A stretch of 53,510 bases of DNA from Planctomyces sp. SH-PL62. Lineage in GTDB: Bacteria; Planctomycetota; Planctomycetia; Planctomycetales; Planctomycetaceae. The translations under genes and the position numbers were made by a program. Positions 3,277 to 27,704 of the stretch are shown in pieces. Position 1 is the first letter of the stretch, and the number at the start of each line of letters is the position of its first letter. The stretch spans positions 1 through 53,510 of the forward strand of contig CAMDPX010000015.1 in NCBI GenBank assembly GCA_945905295.1, read 5' to 3'. The notes below the pieces were generated by a model. The model did no database searches. It worked only from the letters and a program-made list of their open reading frames with translations, and was not told the origin of the DNA.

Positions 3277-6200
3277 CTAATTCTTCCGCCGCTTGTCTTG
3301 CGTCATGTCCAACATCACGCGGCCGGTTTCGTCTTTGATCGTGGCCTGATTGTCGAATGTGTCGTCGTTGACCCAGCGGTTGAAGCCGGTGCCGGTCCAG
3401 CCGGTCGGCATGTCGATCGCACGAAAATGAAAACCGCTTGAGGCTTCGTCCCAGGTCAGTCGCCATTCGCCGCGGGAGCCATCCGCGTTGAAGAACCAGA
3501 AGCGGTTCGACTTTTCCATCGGTTCGTAGGTCGCGATCCAGATCGAAGTGAGTTCGTCTTTCTCGTTGAAGGCGCGCGTCATCAGGAATCGGCCGCCGAG
3601 AATCCAGACGCTCGTTTCGCGGATCGTTTCTTCGCGTGGCAGCGGATTCCAAACGGAGGGTTTGTACTTCGCGCGAATCGTCCACTCGCCCGCGAACTTG
3701 TTGAGTTGCGACAGTTCGGCCGGCTCGGCGACGTGCGATTTCGCGGTGGGAACATCGACCTTGGCAATCGCGGCCTTGCGAGTCGCCGTCCAGCGGCCGG
3801 CGTCTTTCATGCCCATCACGTATTGGAATCGTAGCTTGGCCTCGATGTGGTCGGCGTCCACGAATCGTTCGCTGGAAAACAGATTCGAAGCATCGGGCAA
3901 CATCCGGAGTTCGAGCGATTTCGTCGCATCGTCCCACGGTCCACGCCACTCGAACGCCTTGCCGTTGCTGCTGAAGAACCATTGCCGAAACGCGCCGAGG
4001 TTTTGATCGAACGTGAGGAAGAGCAGTCGCTCGTTACCACCATTGACCTCTGGCGAGCGGGGTGGCGTCAGCCCCCCGGTGTTGTTGTCGTCGCCGGACC
4101 GGGGGGCTGACGCCGCCCCGCTCGCCTGCGGAATTTTCTTCGCGTGTGAAAGCAGGAAATAATCGCCGAGCGTCCTCTCGGACGCCGTGTTCATCGTCAG
4201 CCTGGTTTCGTTCGGCGAATTGTCGAACTCTCGGAAGGCGTACTCCGTTTCCCAAGCTCCGACCCAGCGGTCGAGCGAATTCGGCCCGGTCAGTCGATTG
4301 TGACGACCGTGCCGCGAGTCGAAGTCGGTCGGGAGCTTGTCGCGGTCGTAGGCGACCAACTCCAGATCGTCGAACCAACCGCTGCCGCTCCCTTCGACAT
4401 GGCACATGGCATAGAAGTGATCGGCCTGCGGATACGCATCGAGCGCGTCGGTCTTCTCGAACAGATGCCAACCCGGCTGATCCGCCGTCACGCCGACGAG
4501 ATCATGCACTCCGAGAAACTCGCTGCCGCGAAAGTAGTTGAACTTGATGATCGCTCGCGCGTCCTTGTCTCCTTCAAACTTCGCCCAGCCCTTGAGCGCG
4601 TACCGCTTCGTCCGATCCGCCTTCAGATCGTTGCCGAACACGACGCCGCGAGTCCCTTTGCCGCTGATTTGCAGCGACCGCTGCCCGGTGTGTCCACCGT
4701 TGACGACCTCGCAACGAAAATCCGAACCGTCGTTGTGCCACGCTCGCCAGTCGCGCGGCAACTGCGTGAGTCCCGTGTTCTCGAACGACGGATCAGTGAT
4801 CAGGTTGCTGCCGGTGGAACTCGCCCCCTTCGTCGGTGCCTTCTTTGGCTCCGGCAGCGGCAGCGGTTGAACGGTCGCGGCATAGGTGTTGGGTCGCCAT
4901 TTCCCGTCGTCATCGACGTTCAGCATCACCGTTTCCCAAAGCCCCTTGTGCTTCTCGAAGTCGGAGACGTACTGCACCGCCGCGTATCGGCCGGGCGGCA
5001 GTCCGAGGAACTCGTCGATCAGTCGCACTCGTTGCAGCGTCCGGTTTTCGACCTTGCCCGCAGTGTCCCGAATCTGTTGATACAGCGGCACAACCTGTTC
5101 GCGCTTCGCTTGTTTCTTGGCGAGGTTCGATCCGAGGTCGTAGAGCTTGTCGAAATTCTCTTCGTCTGCCACAGCCAGAAACGCCTCGGCTGCTTTGAGG
5201 ACGTTGCGTTCCTCTTGGCCCAGCAACTCGACAACAACCTGTCCCTTCATCGCCTGCCGCACGGCATCGACAGGCAGCGACACCCGAAAGCCGATTTGTT
5301 CGAGTCGGACCAATGCACCGAGCGTGTGGCGATACGATGCACGGCAGGCGAACGCGGGGAAGGGCCAAGCGCTACCCCGCATCACACGCACTGCGTCGTC
5401 TTTTGGTGGTGGGCCATTGGGGTCGAGAGCGGGCTGCTCCTGAAATTGGCCGTAGTACGTGAGTTCCCACGGATCCTGGCACCATTCCCACACATTGCCC
5501 TGGAGGTCGTGCATGCCGAAGGGATTCGCCTGCAATTCTCCCACGGCATGTGTGCGGTTGGCCGAGTTCCGGCCGATCCAAGCAATCTGGTCAAGTTGTT
5601 CGTCCCCATCGCCGCTCGAATACTTCATCGTCGATCCGGCGCGGCACGAAAACTCCCATTCGGCTTCCGTCAGCAGGCGGTAGCCGACGCCGTTGAGTTG
5701 CGTTGCGCCATCATCACGGCGGGAATTGTCTGGCTGCTGTTTCTCCTGCTGGCTCAGCTTCGCGCAGAACGCGACCGCCTCGTGCCAACTGACCATTTCC
5801 ACGGGGTGGTTCGTCGTGTCCAGGCCAGCGACTGCATCTTTCCCCGGACCAGTCACGGAAAAGTGGGACGGGTTCTTCCCCATCACTTTTTCGTATTGCG
5901 CCTGCGTGACTTCGTAGATTCCCACATAGCGCGGTTGCGAGAGGATCACCTTGTGTTGAGGGCCTTCACTCTTCGCGCAGCGCTGCGCAAACTCGTTGTC
6001 GTCGGCGATCTTGAGAGCCTCCTCGATTTCAGCGGGCGTGCTGCCCATCATGTATTCACCCGGCGGGATGAGGACGAACTTCATGCCGATGGAGTTCTTG
6101 TACTCGACCGGCACGCCGAGATGCTTGGCCCAGGCTTCCTGATGTTTTTTCGCCTGTTCGGCATCGAACGGTGCGATCGCTCGTGGTGGGATGTCTTTCG

Positions 6201-13625: not shown

Positions 13626-13655
13626 GATGATGACGTTGGACGTTGAAATAAGTTG

Positions 13656-13893
13656 CTCAAACTGAGCGGTTTTATTTTTGTCCCGTCAGGGACACTCGAA
13701 AATAGCCCAGCACGTCAGTGCTGGGATGACCGATCAGCGTGCCTCTTGAGTCCCGTCAGGGACGACAGAGCAGGATCGTTCTCTGTCGTCCCTAACGGGA
13801 CTCTGTGATCATTTGCGTCACGAAACCCAGCACTAACGTGCTGGGCTATTCTCGATACGTCCCTAGCGGGACTCAAAAACCGCTCAGTTTGAG
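13656..13893. mobile_element. Short non-coding cassette with terminal inverted repeats and a target-site-like duplication
   Basis: The ends are 18-bp perfect inverted repeats, CTCAAACTGAGCGGTTTT (13656-13673) and its complement (13876-13893). TAAGTTG is directly repeated outside both ends (13649-13655 and 13894-13900); the shared direct repeat extends to TAAGTTGCTCA if some end bases are counted as target. Inside are hairpins with GTCCCGTCAGGGAC, AATAGCCCAGCAC..GTGCTGGG, and GTCCCTAACGGGAC. This is the same internal architecture as the tandem units at 17.9-19.1 kb. No protein is encoded. It looks like a MITE-type insertion that split an ABC ATPase/permease operon. Confidence 0.8.
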
Positions 13894-13904
13894 TAAGTTG
13901 CTCA

Positions 13905-16528: not shown

Positions 16529-16600
16529 GAGCCGGAACGCGTTAGCGTCCGGTTTGTCGTTCGTTCTGATGTCGGAACCGGACGCTAGCGCGTTCCGGCT
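16529..16600. repeat. Palindromic element, family D, copy 2
   Basis: Arms 16529-16554 and 16576-16600 repeat the GCCGGAACGCG[CT]TAGCGTCCGG sequence found at 7815-7878, one arm with a C-to-T change. It fills much of the gap between the lipoprotein gene and the next plus-strand gene and may also form the transcript end of the former. Confidence 0.92.
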
Positions 16601-17395: not shown

Positions 17396-17842
17396 TCAGT
17401 CCAACATCCATTCTTCGTATTCAAGTTCGTGCTTTTTGAGGAACGCTTTCAGCTCGTCCTTGAACGATTTCTTGCGGTGATGTTCGGCTTGGTTCTCGAT
17501 GTACTTAATCGTGTCCTCGACGCCTGACACGCCGATGCTGAAGGCTCCATAGCCTTCTTGCCATTCAAACGTCTTGAGCTTTGGAAAGGTCTCGTGAATC
17601 CACTTCGACGAGTTGCCTTTCAACAATTGCACGGCTTTGGCAATTGCCAGCGTTGACGGGAGCGAAAGCAAAATGTGGACGTGATCCTCGACTCCGCCGA
17701 CTTTCAACGCCTTCATCTTGTTCTCGCGAGCAATTCCGCCGAGGTACGGCCACAGCCGATCTTGGATTTCCGGCGTGATCCAAGATCGCCGCTCCTTCGT
17801 GGAAAAGACGACGTGCATCAAACAACTCACAAACGAGTGCAT
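17396..17842 (-). CDS. IS200-like / REP-associated (RAYT) Y1 transposase
   Basis: 148 residues, the normal size for Transposase_17 proteins. The HUH metal site is visible as EDHVHILLSLP (HxH), and the late helix KYIENQAEHH carries the candidate catalytic Tyr before ENQ. The C-terminal FKDELKAFLKKHELEYEEWMLD is typical of the REP-associated branch. Such enzymes nick and rejoin single-stranded DNA at hairpins. An array of hairpin-bearing repeats begins ~100 bp upstream of its start, the arrangement expected if these repeats are its substrates. No left/right IS ends were identified, so it may be a domesticated single-copy gene rather than an active IS. Confidence 0.88.
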   Translation of the reverse strand: MHSFVSCLMHVVFSTKERRSWITPEIQDRLWPYLGGIARENKMKALKVGGVEDHVHILLSLPSTLAIAKAVQLLKGNSSKWIHETFPKLKTFEWQEGYGAFSIGVSGVEDTIKYIENQAEHHRKKSFKDELKAFLKKHELEYEEWMLD

Positions 17843-18370
17843 GGTTGAGCCTCGCGTTGGAGAAAAGATGTGTTGGAGTCGGGATCATCGGAGCGAGCGC
17901 GGAAAAACAAGCACGGCCGAGAAACGCGAATCCCAAGTGCCCTTGTCCCGCCAGGGACATCCGACAATAGCCCACCGTTTCAACGGTGGGAAACGAATCG
18001 GTCGCGGATCGACAATGCCCCGGTAGGGGCGAAAGAAATCGGCACTCAACACCCGATCTGCAACTCGGATCCGTTGGCACCGAACTCCGAATCGTCTTTC
18101 GTCCCTAACGGGACTTCCCGGATCGTTGTGTTCCGTTAACCCAGCGATGAATCGCTGGGCTATTGTCGAATGTCCCTGGCGGGACAAAGACAACGCAACG
18201 GCACAAATCTCGCGTTGCGCACGACATCTTCCGCGTGACGTTTACCGTGCGCTTTGTCCCGCCAGGGACATCTCGAAAATAGCCCACCGTTTCAACGGTG
18301 GGTAGCGAGATCACCCGACGAGGGCCAAGCCCCGGCAGGGGCGAAAGAGGGCGGTGATCGCCGCTCCGCT

Positions 18371-18452
18371 GTTCGCGAACATCCGCACGGTCGGAGGTAC
18401 CGAAGCCGCGATGCAAGCATGGTCGTTGCGGGCGCGAAGACGAATCGCGTTC
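18371..18452 (-). pseudogene. DUF433 antitoxin fragment in repeat unit 2
   Basis: Read on the minus strand this gives DHACIAASVPPTVRMFAN, which aligns with GQACIVGTRIPVHQVVRMFAN of the intact antitoxin at 19493-19729. The DNA also shares GCGAACATCCGCACG and GATGCAAGC with it. The fragment is short of both ends and contains small deletions, so it is a fossil. Confidence 0.75.
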
Positions 18453-18743
18453 GAGACTCGTTGCGAAACCATTCGCTCCAAAATTGGTCTTTCGTCCCTG
18501 CGGGACTTCACGAATTGTTGTGCCCCGAAACCCAGCAATGAATTGCTGGGCTATTTTCGGACGTCCCTAGCGGGACAAAGACAAAACAACGGCACCAAAC
18601 CGTTATCGCGCGTAAAGACTTTCATGCTTTGTCCCGCCAGGGACATCTCGAAAATAGCCCACCGTTTCAACGGTGGGTGACGAGATCACCCGACGAGGGC
18701 CAAGCCCCGGCAGGGTCGAAAGAGGTCGATGATCGCCGCTCCG

Positions 18744-18833
18744 CCGTTCGCGAACATCCGCTCGATCGGAGGCACCGGAGCCGCGATGCAAGCATGGTCG
18801 TTGCGGGCGCGAAGACGAATCGAATCGCGTTCG
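18744..18833 (-). pseudogene. DUF433 antitoxin fragment in repeat unit 3
   Basis: The same fragment as in unit 2, about 376 bp further on, sharing CGCGAACATCCGC, GGCACCGGA and GATGCAAGCATGG. It has a short GAATC duplication relative to unit 2. It evidently multiplied with the array unit and not independently. Confidence 0.75.
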
Positions 18834-19145
18834 AGACTCGTTGCGAAACCATTCGCCCCCAAATGGGTCTTTCGTCCCTACGGGACTTCACGAATTGTTG
18901 TGTCCTGAAACCCAGCAATAAATTGCTGGGCTATTTTCGGACGTCCCTAGCGGGACAAAGAGAAAGACAACGGCATCAAACCGTTCATCGCGCGTAAAGA
19001 CTTTCATGCTTTGTCCCGCCAGGGACATCTCGAAAATAGCCCACCGTTTCAACGGTGGGTGACGAGATCACCCAACGAGGGCCAAGCCCCGGCAGGGGCG
19101 AAAGAGGTCGGTGGTCGCCACTCCGCCGTCCGCGAACAACCTGAC

Positions 19146-19496
19146 TCACTTCGCGCGATAGACGCTCTGCACGGAATCTCGCATGACGACAGTGAAACCC
19201 GACCAATCGTTTTCTGGAAATTGCCGCAGCGCGGCCATGACGCGAGCATGGATTCGCTGCTCGTTGGGCTGGTGCAGACGCACGATGAGAATTCCCCAAT
19301 GAGCTTCTTCACGATGTGTCGTGAAGCCTTTGTCCGTGGTCACGAGCAGGCGTTGCTCGCTCTGAGCCAGCGACCACAATTCGTCGTCGAGCATCCCTTG
19401 CTGAAACGTGCCACGGATGTCGAGGACGTCATGGCCCAACGTCCGCAATTCCTGAACGGTCACGTTAGGGATGTTCTCGTCCACGATAATCTTCAT
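19146..19496 (-). CDS. DUF5615 PIN-like protein, probable toxin
   Basis: 116 residues. The PIN-like fold is suggested by conserved acidic residues: IIVDENIPN at strand 1, DILDIRG, LVTTDKGF and a late Asn/Asp region. DUF5615 proteins are Mut7-C/PIN-like predicted RNases. It overlaps the upstream DUF433 gene by 4 bp (ATGA), the usual toxin-antitoxin order with antitoxin first. The stop codon lies ~35 bp from the truncated last unit of the repeat array. Activity is inferred from family and context. Confidence 0.8.
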   Translation of the reverse strand: MKIIVDENIPNVTVQELRTLGHDVLDIRGTFQQGMLDDELWSLAQSEQRLLVTTDKGFTTHREEAHWGILIVRLHQPNEQRIHARVMAALRQFPENDWSGFTVVMRDSVQSVYRAK

Positions 19497-19729
19497 GGCG
19501 TGACGACCAAATCATCAAGCGGCGTCACCTGTTCTTCAGCTAGCGAGGCGGCGTATTCGAGGCACGCGAAGATGTCCTCACGCGTGATCGACGGGTACGC
19601 CCGCAGCAGGTCGTCAGTGCCGTCGCCGTTGGCGAACATCCGCACGACTTGATGCACCGGAATCCGAGTCCCGACGATGCAAGCCTGCCCGTGGCAGACG
19701 TTCGCGTGAATCGAAATGCGTTCGCTCAT
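19493..19729 (-). CDS. DUF433 antitoxin-like protein
   Basis: 78 residues, the normal length for DUF433. Motifs: HGQACIVGTRIPVHQVV, an N-terminal strand and helix-turn, then LLRAYPSITREDIFACLEYAASL. The core is a winged-helix-like DNA-binding fold, and the family is routinely encoded before a DUF5615 gene. GGAG stands ~8 bases before the ATG. The 4-bp overlap with the downstream toxin gene implies translational coupling. Fragments of a closely similar gene occur in the adjacent array. Confidence 0.85.
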   Translation of the reverse strand: MSERISIHANVCHGQACIVGTRIPVHQVVRMFANGDGTDDLLRAYPSITREDIFACLEYAASLAEEQVTPLDDLVVTP

Positions 19730-22029: not shown

Positions 22030-22255
22030 GCAGAGGCGACACGGATCGGCAAGGCACGGTGCTCAGTCCGTTGCTGAGCAACATTTACCTCAATCCGCTG
22101 GACCATCTGTTGGCGGCGCAAGGGATCGGGATGGTGGCCGTTCAATCTTCTCGCAGGTCAGACCATCAACCGGAGAGCCGGATGCGGGAAACCCGCCCGT
22201 CCGGTTCGGAGGAAGGGGCGACCGAAATCAATCGGTCGTTCCGCCCCCGATCATG
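22030..22255 (+). mobile_element. Group II intron remnant (RT fragment plus 3' ribozyme end)
   Basis: On the plus strand, 22045-22136 reads RQGTVLSPLLSNIYLNPLDH then LLAAQGIGMV, the RT motif just before YADD of group II intron maturases. The reading leaves homology immediately before YADD. After ~40 bases come domain V and a VI-like stem (22175-22248). The 5' ribozyme, most of the RT and the maturase X domain are missing, so the element is dead. It lies between the aminotransferase gene and the DapA-family gene, opposite to both; the latter's last codons overlap its 3' end. Confidence 0.85.
22175..22248 (+). ncRNA. Group II intron domain V and domain VI-like hairpins
   Basis: 22175-22207 is a 33-nt hairpin starting GAGCCGGATGCGGG and closing with CCCGCCCGTCCGGTTC. 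It has the expected GAGC/GGTTC base, internal bulge and GNRA-like GAAA loop of domain V. A second stem with outer arms GGGGCG and CGCCCC (22215-22248) follows at the domain VI position. Without domain I it cannot splice. Confidence 0.8.
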
Positions 22256-26418: not shown

Positions 26419-27237
26419 TCACTTCGGCCTATAACTTCGGTTAATCCGTTTGATTTCAGTCGCCATTGAATCGGAGTGAAAGTTGAAGCACAGGCCGGCT
26501 TCGACATCGCTGACTTTCAAGAGTGATCGCTGACGTGCCAGATGAATCGGCTCCACCTCTTTCGTGCAGACGCAGGCGACCATGAGGCTGCCTTCGACCA
26601 CCATCGGGATCTCCTTCTCGCTGGGAATGAGCTGCTCGCGATAGACGAGATTCACGGGCAAACGCTGCGCGATCTTCATGCCGCGTAGTTTCAGTTCGTG
26701 AGCGAGGGCCGCTTCATAGGCACTGCGAAGCAAGCCCGGGCCGAGGACATGTTGTACCTCGATCGCCGCGTTGATCACCTCGTGAGACAACGGATCGAAT
26801 GTGGTGTCGATTGCCAATTGATTGTGTTGTCTGAGAGCTGGGACGTGGGAATTCGCACGCCGCAAGATGCCATCGCGGAGCATCATCTCGGCGAAGTTGA
26901 TAAGCAGTCCGAGCTTGAGTCGGGAGAGTCGCAGGTACGTAATCAACTGCGCCTCATGCACCGGATGCAGCTTCTCAACAGCCTTGAGTTCGATCAGAAG
27001 TTGCCGAGCGACGATCAGGTCGATGCGATAGCCGCAATCCAAATGAGCCTCTTTGTAAATCAGCGGCAGCCCGACTTGGCATTCGTGTTCAATCCCTCTG
27101 GCCGTGAGTTCCAAACTCAATGCACGCTCATAGTCAGGTTCGTCCACGCCAGGACCAAATTCTCGATGCACGGCAATGGCCGCAGCGATGAGCTGACCGG
27201 AGAGCTCTCCGCCAAGGTTTTCATGTTTGAAAGGCAT
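26419..27237 (-). CDS. Fused double GxxExxY protein
   Basis: 272 residues containing two GxxExxY domains, normally separate ~130-residue proteins of unknown function with a PD-(D/E)XK-like core. Copy 1 (~10-130) has GPGVDEPDYERAL, GYRIDLIVARQLLIELKAVE, and ITYLRLSRLKLGLLINF. Copy 2 (~150-270) begins SHEVINAAIEVQHVLGPGLLRSAYEAAL but its E-x-K core is eroded (VVEGSLMVACVCTKEVE), so only the first half looks intact. The ATG at 27237 lies in the tandem repeat, and no ribosome site is seen. Its first ~66 bases are copied upstream twice. Confidence 0.8.
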   Translation of the reverse strand: MPFKHENLGGELSGQLIAAAIAVHREFGPGVDEPDYERALSLELTARGIEHECQVGLPLIYKEAHLDCGYRIDLIVARQLLIELKAVEKLHPVHEAQLITYLRLSRLKLGLLINFAEMMLRDGILRRANSHVPALRQHNQLAIDTTFDPLSHEVINAAIEVQHVLGPGLLRSAYEAALAHELKLRGMKIAQRLPVNLVYREQLIPSEKEIPMVVEGSLMVACVCTKEVEPIHLARQRSLLKVSDVEAGLCFNFHSDSMATEIKRINRSYRPK

Positions 27238-27630
27238 GTCTTTTTACACTACGAGAGATTGGAAGACCGCAGAGGTGAGGAATTGGAATCTGTCCTCTGC
27301 GGTCTTCCAATCTCTCGCGGTTCATGGCAATGGCCGCAGCGATGAGCTGACCGGAGATCTCTCCGCCAAGGTTTTCATGGTTGGAAGGCATGTTTTTTAA
27401 CACCGCGAGAGATTGGAAGACCGCAGAGGTGAGGAATTGGAATCTGTCCTCTGCGGTCTTCCAATCTCTCGCGGTGCATGGCAATGGCCGTCGCGATGAG
27501 CTGACCGGAGATCTCTCCGCCAGGGTTTTCATGGTTGGAAGGCATGCCTTTTAACACTACGAGAGATTGGAAGACCGCAGAGGTGAGGAATTGGAATCTG
27601 TCCTCTGCGGTCTTCCAATCTCTCGCGGTG
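27170..27630. repeat. 154-bp tandem repeat carrying the start of the GxxExxY gene and a palindrome
   Basis: Three copies, with the hairpin start GAGAGATTGGAAG at 27253, 27407 and 27561 (exact 154 bp period). Each unit combines the antisense of the N-terminal GxxExxY codons (HENLGGEISGQLIA region) with a family E hairpin in the order GAGAGATTGGAAGACCGCAG ... CTGCGGTCTTCCAATCTCTC. The gene's real 5' end is the first copy; the others are near-identical start-codon duplicates without a following gene body. Confidence 0.93.
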
Positions 27631-27704
27631 CCAGAACCTCCCACTCGTCTGGCCGAAGTGCGGGATCGGGTTACCGGTTGTGGCCAAGTTGCGGAGAAAG
27701 TCGG

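Follow-up and report, generated by a model that had tools for sequence, protein, structure and literature searches.

TnpA subclass 1.2, as described in the sections of Quentin et al. 2018 cited here (PMC6006769), comprises low-copy proteins of a median 148 aa with the motifs Y---Q--HH, DH[IV]H and WQ, which occur mostly in Cyanobacteria and Bacteroidetes and for which the column on repetitive extragenic palindromic (REP) sequences reads 'no'. The REP-associated tyrosine transposases of REPtrons (class 2, RAYT/TnpA_REP) have YI..NP as their Y motif according to Table 1 of the same work. GTAG is the known REP tag in the cited part of Di Nocera et al. 2013 (PMC3733652), where the TIRYT family is also given acidobacterial members. 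The family RF01687 is curated in Rfam as a small RNA (sRNA) of unexplained role, Acido-Lenti-1 RNA. In the portions of the two articles cited here, it was rated 'y', probably RNA, in Acidobacteria and Lentisphaerae by Weinberg et al. 2010 (PMC2864571), and a 2026 paper considers that it may regulate protease genes (PMC13298647); no printed link between Acido-Lenti-1 and a transposase was found in the surveyed part of the open-licence literature. Here, we describe a locus in a stretch of 53,510 nucleotides from Planctomyces sp. SH-PL62 (contig CAMDPX010000015.1), hereafter the window, in which a transposase gene, tnpA, stands beside an array of hairpin cassettes. Based on its sequence, we consider it rather likely that the locus is REPtron-like, i.e., that a low-copy HUH/Y1 TnpA with the subclass 1.2 signature is placed beside its predicted cognate DNA hairpins. 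The new point is that the Rfam RNA family RF01687 is probably the DNA repeat of such a REPtron-like system.

The gene and the hairpin features of the window are as follows:

17396-17842, minus strand: tnpA, HUH/Y1 transposase with the subclass 1.2 signature (from the open reading frame list, Pfam, NCBIfam and the structure model)
17945-18185: cassette 1, diverged, 241 bp, without DUF433-like filler (from hairpin reading and repeat comparison)
cassette 1, before its mirror half: HP1 at 17945-17958, ATAG at 17967-17970, HP2 at 17971-17990 and a GCCCC hairpin at 18017-18030
cassette 1, mirror half: HP1' at 18101-18114, HP2 at 18140-18159 and HP1 at 18172-18185
18256-18576: cassette 2, two mirror halves around DUF433-like filler; RF01687 at 18531-18577, plus strand, 41.7 bits
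18631-18956: cassette 3, organised like cassette 2; RF01687 at 18911-18957, plus strand, 38.7 bits
19013-19101: half-cassette near the end of the DUF5615 gene, with HP1 at 19013-19026, HP2 at 19040-19059 and a GCCCC hairpin at 19086-19099
13656-13893: isolated cassette of six hairpins, bounded by the 18-bp terminal inverted repeats CTCAAACTGAGCGGTTTT; RF01687 at 13679-13725, minus strand, 42.3 bits

The array lies upstream of tnpA, at higher coordinates. In each half-cassette, a linker that ends with ATAG joins the short stem-loop HP1 (GTCCC..GGGAC) to a longer one, HP2 (e.g., CCCACCGTTTCAACGGTGGG); the second half is the mirror image of the first, and extra hairpins of the GTCCC or GCCCC type lie between the halves. 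When the positions were rechecked, ATAG was found directly before HP2 in the window cassettes, and the GTCCC/GGGAC hairpins reported in the original prediction, as well as longer CCCA-type hairpins, were present in every cassette. The related hairpins that it had noticed near 13.7 kb belong to the isolated cassette, which is flanked by the direct repeat TAAGTTG (13649-13655 and 13894-13900). Its count of three full units of ~380 bp and a partial one holds for cassettes; only two units, 18251-18625 (375 bp) and 18626-19007 (382 bp), are near-identical, the third being the diverged 241-bp cassette, and the partial unit begins at 19008. Tandem Repeats Finder placed the repeat at 18251-19138, with a period of 375, 2.3 copies and a 93% match.

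The basic site, HP1, linker, [AG]TAG and HP2, corresponds to RF01687 read on the opposite strand. The Rfam scan of the window gave three RF01687 matches above the gathering score (E 2.8e-6 to 2.6e-5), and cassette 1 contains two below the cut-off, at 17944-17990 on the minus strand (35.0 bits) and at 18140-18186 on the plus strand (35.6 bits). Inverted matches of 65, 57 and 53 nt at 78-87% connect the cassettes. Because of these long inverted matches and the three over-threshold RF01687 matches, the hairpins are not a chance occurrence.

The open reading frame at 17396-17842 (minus strand) encodes 148 aa and matches the Pfam domain Y1_Tnp with an E value of 3.5e-31, so that the predicted Y1 transposase beside a hairpin array, here the tandem repeat, was confirmed. 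The protein contains the HUH residues D53-H54-V55-H56, the pair W94-Q95 and the sequence Y114-IEN-Q118-AE-HH (YIENQAEHH). Judged by these motifs and by its length (DHVH, WQ, Y---Q--HH, 148 aa), it carries the signature of subclass 1.2, an assignment made from motif and length. Two other assignments were rejected. The NCBIfam REP_Tyr_transpos model was failed, with 19 bits against a cut-off of 80, and YIENQAEHH stands in place of the class 2 motif YI..NP, so the protein is not a RAYT by sequence; that part of the predicted RAYT/REP-like system has to be given up, although a REP-like transposase/hairpin system is well supported. Class 3 TnpA requires Y----Q and has a median of 178 aa, which does not fit a protein of 148 aa with Y---Q.

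The source genome assembly (8.6 Mb, 476 contigs) contains 13 Y1_Tnp matches, four of which have the subclass 1.2 signature; the subclass profile likewise finds four. Several near-identical copies of the gene were not found in the genome, the other three signature-bearing genes being 34-55% identical to the window protein. All four lie among cassettes of one plan but different hairpin sequence, as read by eye: GTCCC/CCCACC for the window gene, GTCGC/CCGTGGG for C390, GGTCC/CCCGCCC for C90 and GGCCC/CCAGGGCC for C45. A search of the full genome with RF01687 returned at least 35 matches over the cut-off and at least 90 rows at E <=10 (150 of 1677 candidates scored), and no row lay within 5 kb of the nine other Y1 genes. 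As a weak control, seven of these nine genes had four hairpins in total, counted in stretches that begin beyond 200 bp upstream and beyond 100 bp downstream of the match.

These data bear on the possibility that the locus is a classical IS200/IS605 insertion sequence with elaborate ends. The NCBIfam IS200/IS605 equivalog model was passed with 78.7 bits against a cut-off of 55, and the AlphaFold model (pLDDT 92.2) has IS608/ISDra2 as its closest structures, the 30 PDB matches at E <=0.001 in the model-based structure search being IS200-type transposases and, last, the RAYT 4er8. However, the three further signature genes of the genome are too different in sequence for near-identical insertion sequence copies, many hairpin copies occur without a gene, and the sites are tagged and REP-like; a classical insertion sequence is therefore very improbable.

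To compare the surroundings of related genes, we carried out a protein-only search with the four signature proteins and took the best 80 of 499 confirmed candidates. According to their labels, some of which look wrong, the records of the 80 relatives are planctomycete, verrucomicrobial, acidobacterial, calditrichal, KSB1 and others, and Y---Q--HH is present in 75 of the relatives. The suggestion that the system is specific to planctomycetes was rejected, because relatives also occur in records of acidobacterial, verrucomicrobial, calditrichal and Bacteroidota type. Perfect stem-loops (stem of at least 7, loop of 2-8) reach a density of 7.15/kb in the 250 bp next to tnpA, which falls to 2.66 at 250-500 bp and to 0.75 at 3-5 kb, an approximately tenfold difference between the nearest and the farthest of these zones. 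A TAG-type tag at the foot was found in 142 of 383 hairpins within 500 bp of tnpA and in 21 of 257 beyond 2 kb; the 142 comprise 67 ATAG, 56 GTAG, 14 TTAG and five others, 105 of them are in mirror orientation around the gene, and 60 of the 80 loci have at least one within 500 bp. Many large hairpins resemble GTAG-tagged REPs in having [AG]TAG at the foot. Tagged hairpins flank the gene on both sides in 39 of the 80 loci; those of one locus matched each other at 0.90, compared with 0.61 between loci (permutation maximum 0.70). The sites are often inverted pairs, either around tnpA or, without tnpA, as cassettes of ~200-250 bp.

The Rfam scans of the 80 loci returned 71 RF01687 matches and otherwise three tRNAs, and 37 loci contained a match above the gathering score somewhere. 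As many as 67 of the 71 matches lie at most 600 bp from tnpA (random placement: mean 10.8, maximum 22 in 2000 trials). Within 250 bp of the gene, 28 matches are upstream on the minus strand, 23 downstream on the plus strand and nine the opposite way. This bears on the alternative that Acido-Lenti-1 acts as RNA, either as a genuine small RNA or as a regulatory element, and merely travels near transposase genes, in agreement with its curation in Rfam as an sRNA and, in the cited part of the 2010 paper, with the rating 'y' (PMC2864571). An alignment of 35 RF01687 sequences, each from a different locus, has 98.9% of its cells paired, changes on both sides in 11 of 13 pairs and an invariant GGCT, although its sequences were picked by the Rfam model and it is thus biased toward pairing. 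Such covariation of the stems is strong and is also expected of RNA, but hairpins in DNA give it equally. The mirror orientation of the motif on either side of tnpA (28 and 23 against nine) and its occurrence as inverted pairs in cassettes speak against an RNA, which we regard as improbable.

The co-occurrence of enzyme and motif was analysed in three genome samples, whose phylum names were inferred (Bacteroidota, in GTDB usage, from a Balneolaceae record). The tnpA gene was searched with the subclass profile at E <=1e-15 (at most 13-15 candidates scored) and RF01687 at E <=1e-5 with stricter filters (20-23 candidates scored per genome); among the RF01687 positives, 51 of 57 in the window's phylum, 65 of 67 in Acidobacteriota and 21 of 28 in Bacteroidota were above the family cut-off. 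The window's-phylum sample (Planctomycetota) consisted of 255 genomes, the source genome included, with both, only tnpA, only the motif and neither in 48, 12, 9 and 186 genomes, respectively (Fisher p 3e-31, relatedness ignored here and below). The corresponding numbers were 51, 21, 16 and 209 for the 297 genomes of the Acidobacteriota sample (p 2e-26) and 22, 89, 6 and 130 for the 247 of the Bacteroidota sample (p 2e-4). The link between enzyme and motif is strong but not universal, and weaker in the Bacteroidota sample. The hairpins are thus not equally common in the absence of the transposase, an outcome which had been named as contrary to the original prediction: in the window's phylum, RF01687 occurs in 48 of 60 tnpA-bearing genomes, whereas it is found in nine of 195 tnpA-less ones. 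For 25 of the 80 loci, the whole genomes were searched as well; the motif was found at E <=1e-4 in 23 of them and above the cut-off in 20.

Many strong RF01687 copies, with no subclass 1.2 tnpA detected, are present in genomes G011 (window's phylum; none at E 0.001) and G667 (Acidobacteriota sample). These may be orphan repeats, or the gene may have been lost or the assembly may be incomplete.

Several results weigh against a general pairing of this enzyme with these hairpins. The motif is absent from 89 of the 111 tnpA-bearing genomes of the Bacteroidota sample, and motif-only genomes exist in all three samples (9, 16 and 6, as above). When 15 of the latter, from the window's phylum and Bacteroidota, were re-searched at E 0.001, tnpA matches, weak or partial, appeared in three and were absent from the other 12. 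Of the 12 genomes of the window's phylum with tnpA only, 10 were used and provided 14 tnpA regions; tagged hairpins were seen by eye in four of these regions, or in five when one base is allowed between tag and foot, and four of the 14 have no stem of at least 7 within 450 bp. The sampled genomes are not phylogenetically independent. Among the 80 loci, just 35 have an over-threshold RF01687 match within 600 bp, and 20 have no tagged hairpin within 500 bp. In the source genome, the C45 hairpin family has no TAG at the foot and gave no RF01687 row in the genome search at E <=10. Not all of the hairpin families are recognised by RF01687.

The remaining points of this kind concern the isolated cassettes, which resemble miniature inverted-repeat transposable elements (MITEs). 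Many of them, in two planctomycete genomes and one acidobacterial genome, lie in short elements that have terminal inverted repeats and direct repeats of 4-8 bp, like MITEs moved by DDE enzymes. In the source genome (G000) and its sister G526, they are elements of ~238 bp with the terminal repeat CTCAAACTGAGCGGTTTT. The terminal repeat pair was found at 25 of the 33 loci tried, the remaining eight being left out of scoring, and a direct repeat of at least 5 nt flanks 17 of the 25 scored cassettes (permuted mean 2.3, maximum 9, 2000 permutations). In genome G648 of the Acidobacteriota sample, the elements (L240-L248) are MITE-like, 143-227 bp long and carry the Acido-Lenti-1 motif; a terminal repeat pair is present in 12 of 16 copies but is of another type (GTGTCTGTGT), and 10 of these 12 have a direct repeat of 4-5 nt (without permutation control). 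Eight of the 16 copies sit inside GTCCC..GGGAC hairpins, and seven of these eight have direct repeats of 5 bp, e.g., CGTAG, which suggests loop-targeted insertion.

IS200-type transposition is not known to make a target duplication and uses a fixed tetranucleotide target. Because direct repeats are present, the isolated copies flanked by them were probably placed by a DDE-type enzyme, and the terminal inverted and direct repeats partly contradict a spreading of isolated cassettes by TnpA itself. Our claim is therefore one of an enzyme-substrate relation, and not of TnpA spreading every copy.

The same repeats, around the isolated copies in G000 and G526 and around the copies in G648, agree with the view that the cassettes are ordinary DDE-type MITEs and that the link with tnpA is secondary, either because tnpA lies in or near MITE-rich spots or because MITEs captured REP hairpins. 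However, the terminal repeats differ between G000/G526 and G648, and no terminal repeats of this kind were seen by eye around three inverted pairs in G205, while the core of HP1, RTAG and HP2 and its position beside tnpA recur. In G000/G526, the terminal-repeat pattern matches fall at cassettes and, in one case (C171 of G526), at a cassette remnant; when they were compared by eye, no element longer than a cassette with CTCAAACTGAGCGGTTTT-type ends was apparent, and no DDE enzyme fitting the terminal repeat was found through them. Ordinary MITEs with a secondary link to tnpA are, in our estimation, unlikely.

The history of individual insertions was visible to a limited extent. In the relative G263, the cassette at 13.66-13.89 kb is absent from the matching intergenic region, which differs over ~115 bp, so that the insertion ends are unreadable. 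A comparison of 14 cassette sites of the source genome and six of G526 gave one pair (L022/L162) with flanks common on both sides, which is therefore a shared old insertion.

For the REPtron-like locus, the following course of events is proposed. TnpA would most likely recognise HP2 by its RTAG-tagged strand, HP1 serving as an accessory hairpin, and would nick near HP2 and rejoin single-stranded DNA, e.g., on the lagging-strand template. Recognition and nicking are suggested by the fold and the HUH and Y residues of the protein and by the tag, the position and the conserved strand orientation of the hairpins. Sites recombined in this way might be shuffled locally or grow in tandem, which could have given rise to the array of the window. 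A broader and more tentative proposal, possible but doubtful at present, is that Acido-Lenti-1, rather than being an RNA gene, is the single-stranded DNA substrate of a widespread REP system run by subclass 1.2 TnpA in at least three phyla, with dispersal by two enzymes. TnpA would work locally at the hairpins and build arrays, and unrelated DDE transposases would carry hairpin cassettes as MITEs, some of them into the hairpin loops of other copies.

The genes next to the array, and the fragments resembling one of them, are the following:

18367-18434: DUF433-like fragment in cassette 2; another at 18742-18809 in cassette 3, each ~70 bp
19146-19496, minus strand: DUF5615 (PIN-like) gene, neighbour of the array (domain scan)
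19496-19729, minus strand: DUF433 gene, resembled by the array filler (domain scan)

The DUF5615 and DUF433 genes at 19146-19729 are presumably a pair of the toxin-antitoxin type. In the repeat comparison, the stretches 19624-19661 and 19675-19700 of the DUF433 gene match the array filler at 84% and 77%. In the relative L058, whose tnpA is 93% identical, the cassette is preceded by a partial DUF433-like stretch, and tnpA is followed by a longer one (around 4400-5717). Because of these stretches in L058, the array units appear to consist of a cassette and a piece of the target gene, repeated.

Elsewhere in the window, a tandem repeat at 27167-27631 (period 154, 3.0 copies, 94% match) overlaps the start of a PD-(D/E)XK nuclease-like open reading frame (26419-27237). 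A 25-bp inverted repeat of the AGCCGGAACGCGTTAGCG type at 16530-16600 (96% complementary, 21 nt apart) is unlike the cassettes in sequence. The Rfam scan also gave a group II intron match (RF00029, 44.5 bits) at 22173-22245 on the plus strand. No reverse transcriptase was present in the five larger open reading frames scanned downstream of it, which have DHDPS, SASA (two), WbsX-like and PD-(D/E)XK domains, and the match is perhaps a remnant.

If the REPtron-like reading is correct, one explanation would serve two orphans, a transposase subclass tabulated as lacking repeats and an RNA family without a known role. REP biology would reach well beyond Proteobacteria, RF01687 might need to be re-labelled in Rfam, and many natural enzyme/hairpin pairs would become available for the study of how HUH enzymes recognise single-stranded hairpins.

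The comparison with known systems is based, for the published ones, on the cited sections of the respective articles. The window protein resembles TnpA subclass 1.2 in DHVH, WQ, Y---Q--HH, its 148 aa and the few copies per genome (PMC6006769). It departs from the tabulated subclass, with its 'no' for REP, in that hairpins accompany the gene at most of the 80 loci, and from the published range (Cyanobacteria and Bacteroidetes) in coming from planctomycete, acidobacterial and verrucomicrobial records, Cyanobacteria not having been sampled. Class 3 of the same work is likewise found in Planctomycetes and Acidobacteria with atypical hairpins in high copy, but it has Y----Q, a median of 178 aa and the foot CnGA. 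The TIRtron/TIRYT system of Di Nocera et al. 2013 (PMC3733652) shares with our loci a Y1 gene between inverted repeats, some of them double-palindromic and some repeated elsewhere; unlike the enzyme described here, TIRYT is probably subclass 2.1 according to Quentin et al. 2018 (PMC6006769). With RF01687 (PMC2864571), the two-hairpin motif is the same, here read as DNA and tied to a transposase. The REPtron (RAYT/TnpA_REP with GTAG-tagged REPs that form bacterial interspersed mosaic elements, BIMEs, or REP doublets forming hairpins, REPINs) differs in its enzyme, which has the class 2 motif YI..NP in place of Y---Q--HH of subclass 1.2. It also differs in its sites, since here the site is a double hairpin, ATAG is at least as frequent as GTAG, and the cassettes are ~200-250 bp long, some within MITE-like elements. 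What the two have in common is a low-copy Y1 gene flanked by tagged hairpins in inverted pairs, several families of genes and repeats per genome and many copies without a gene.

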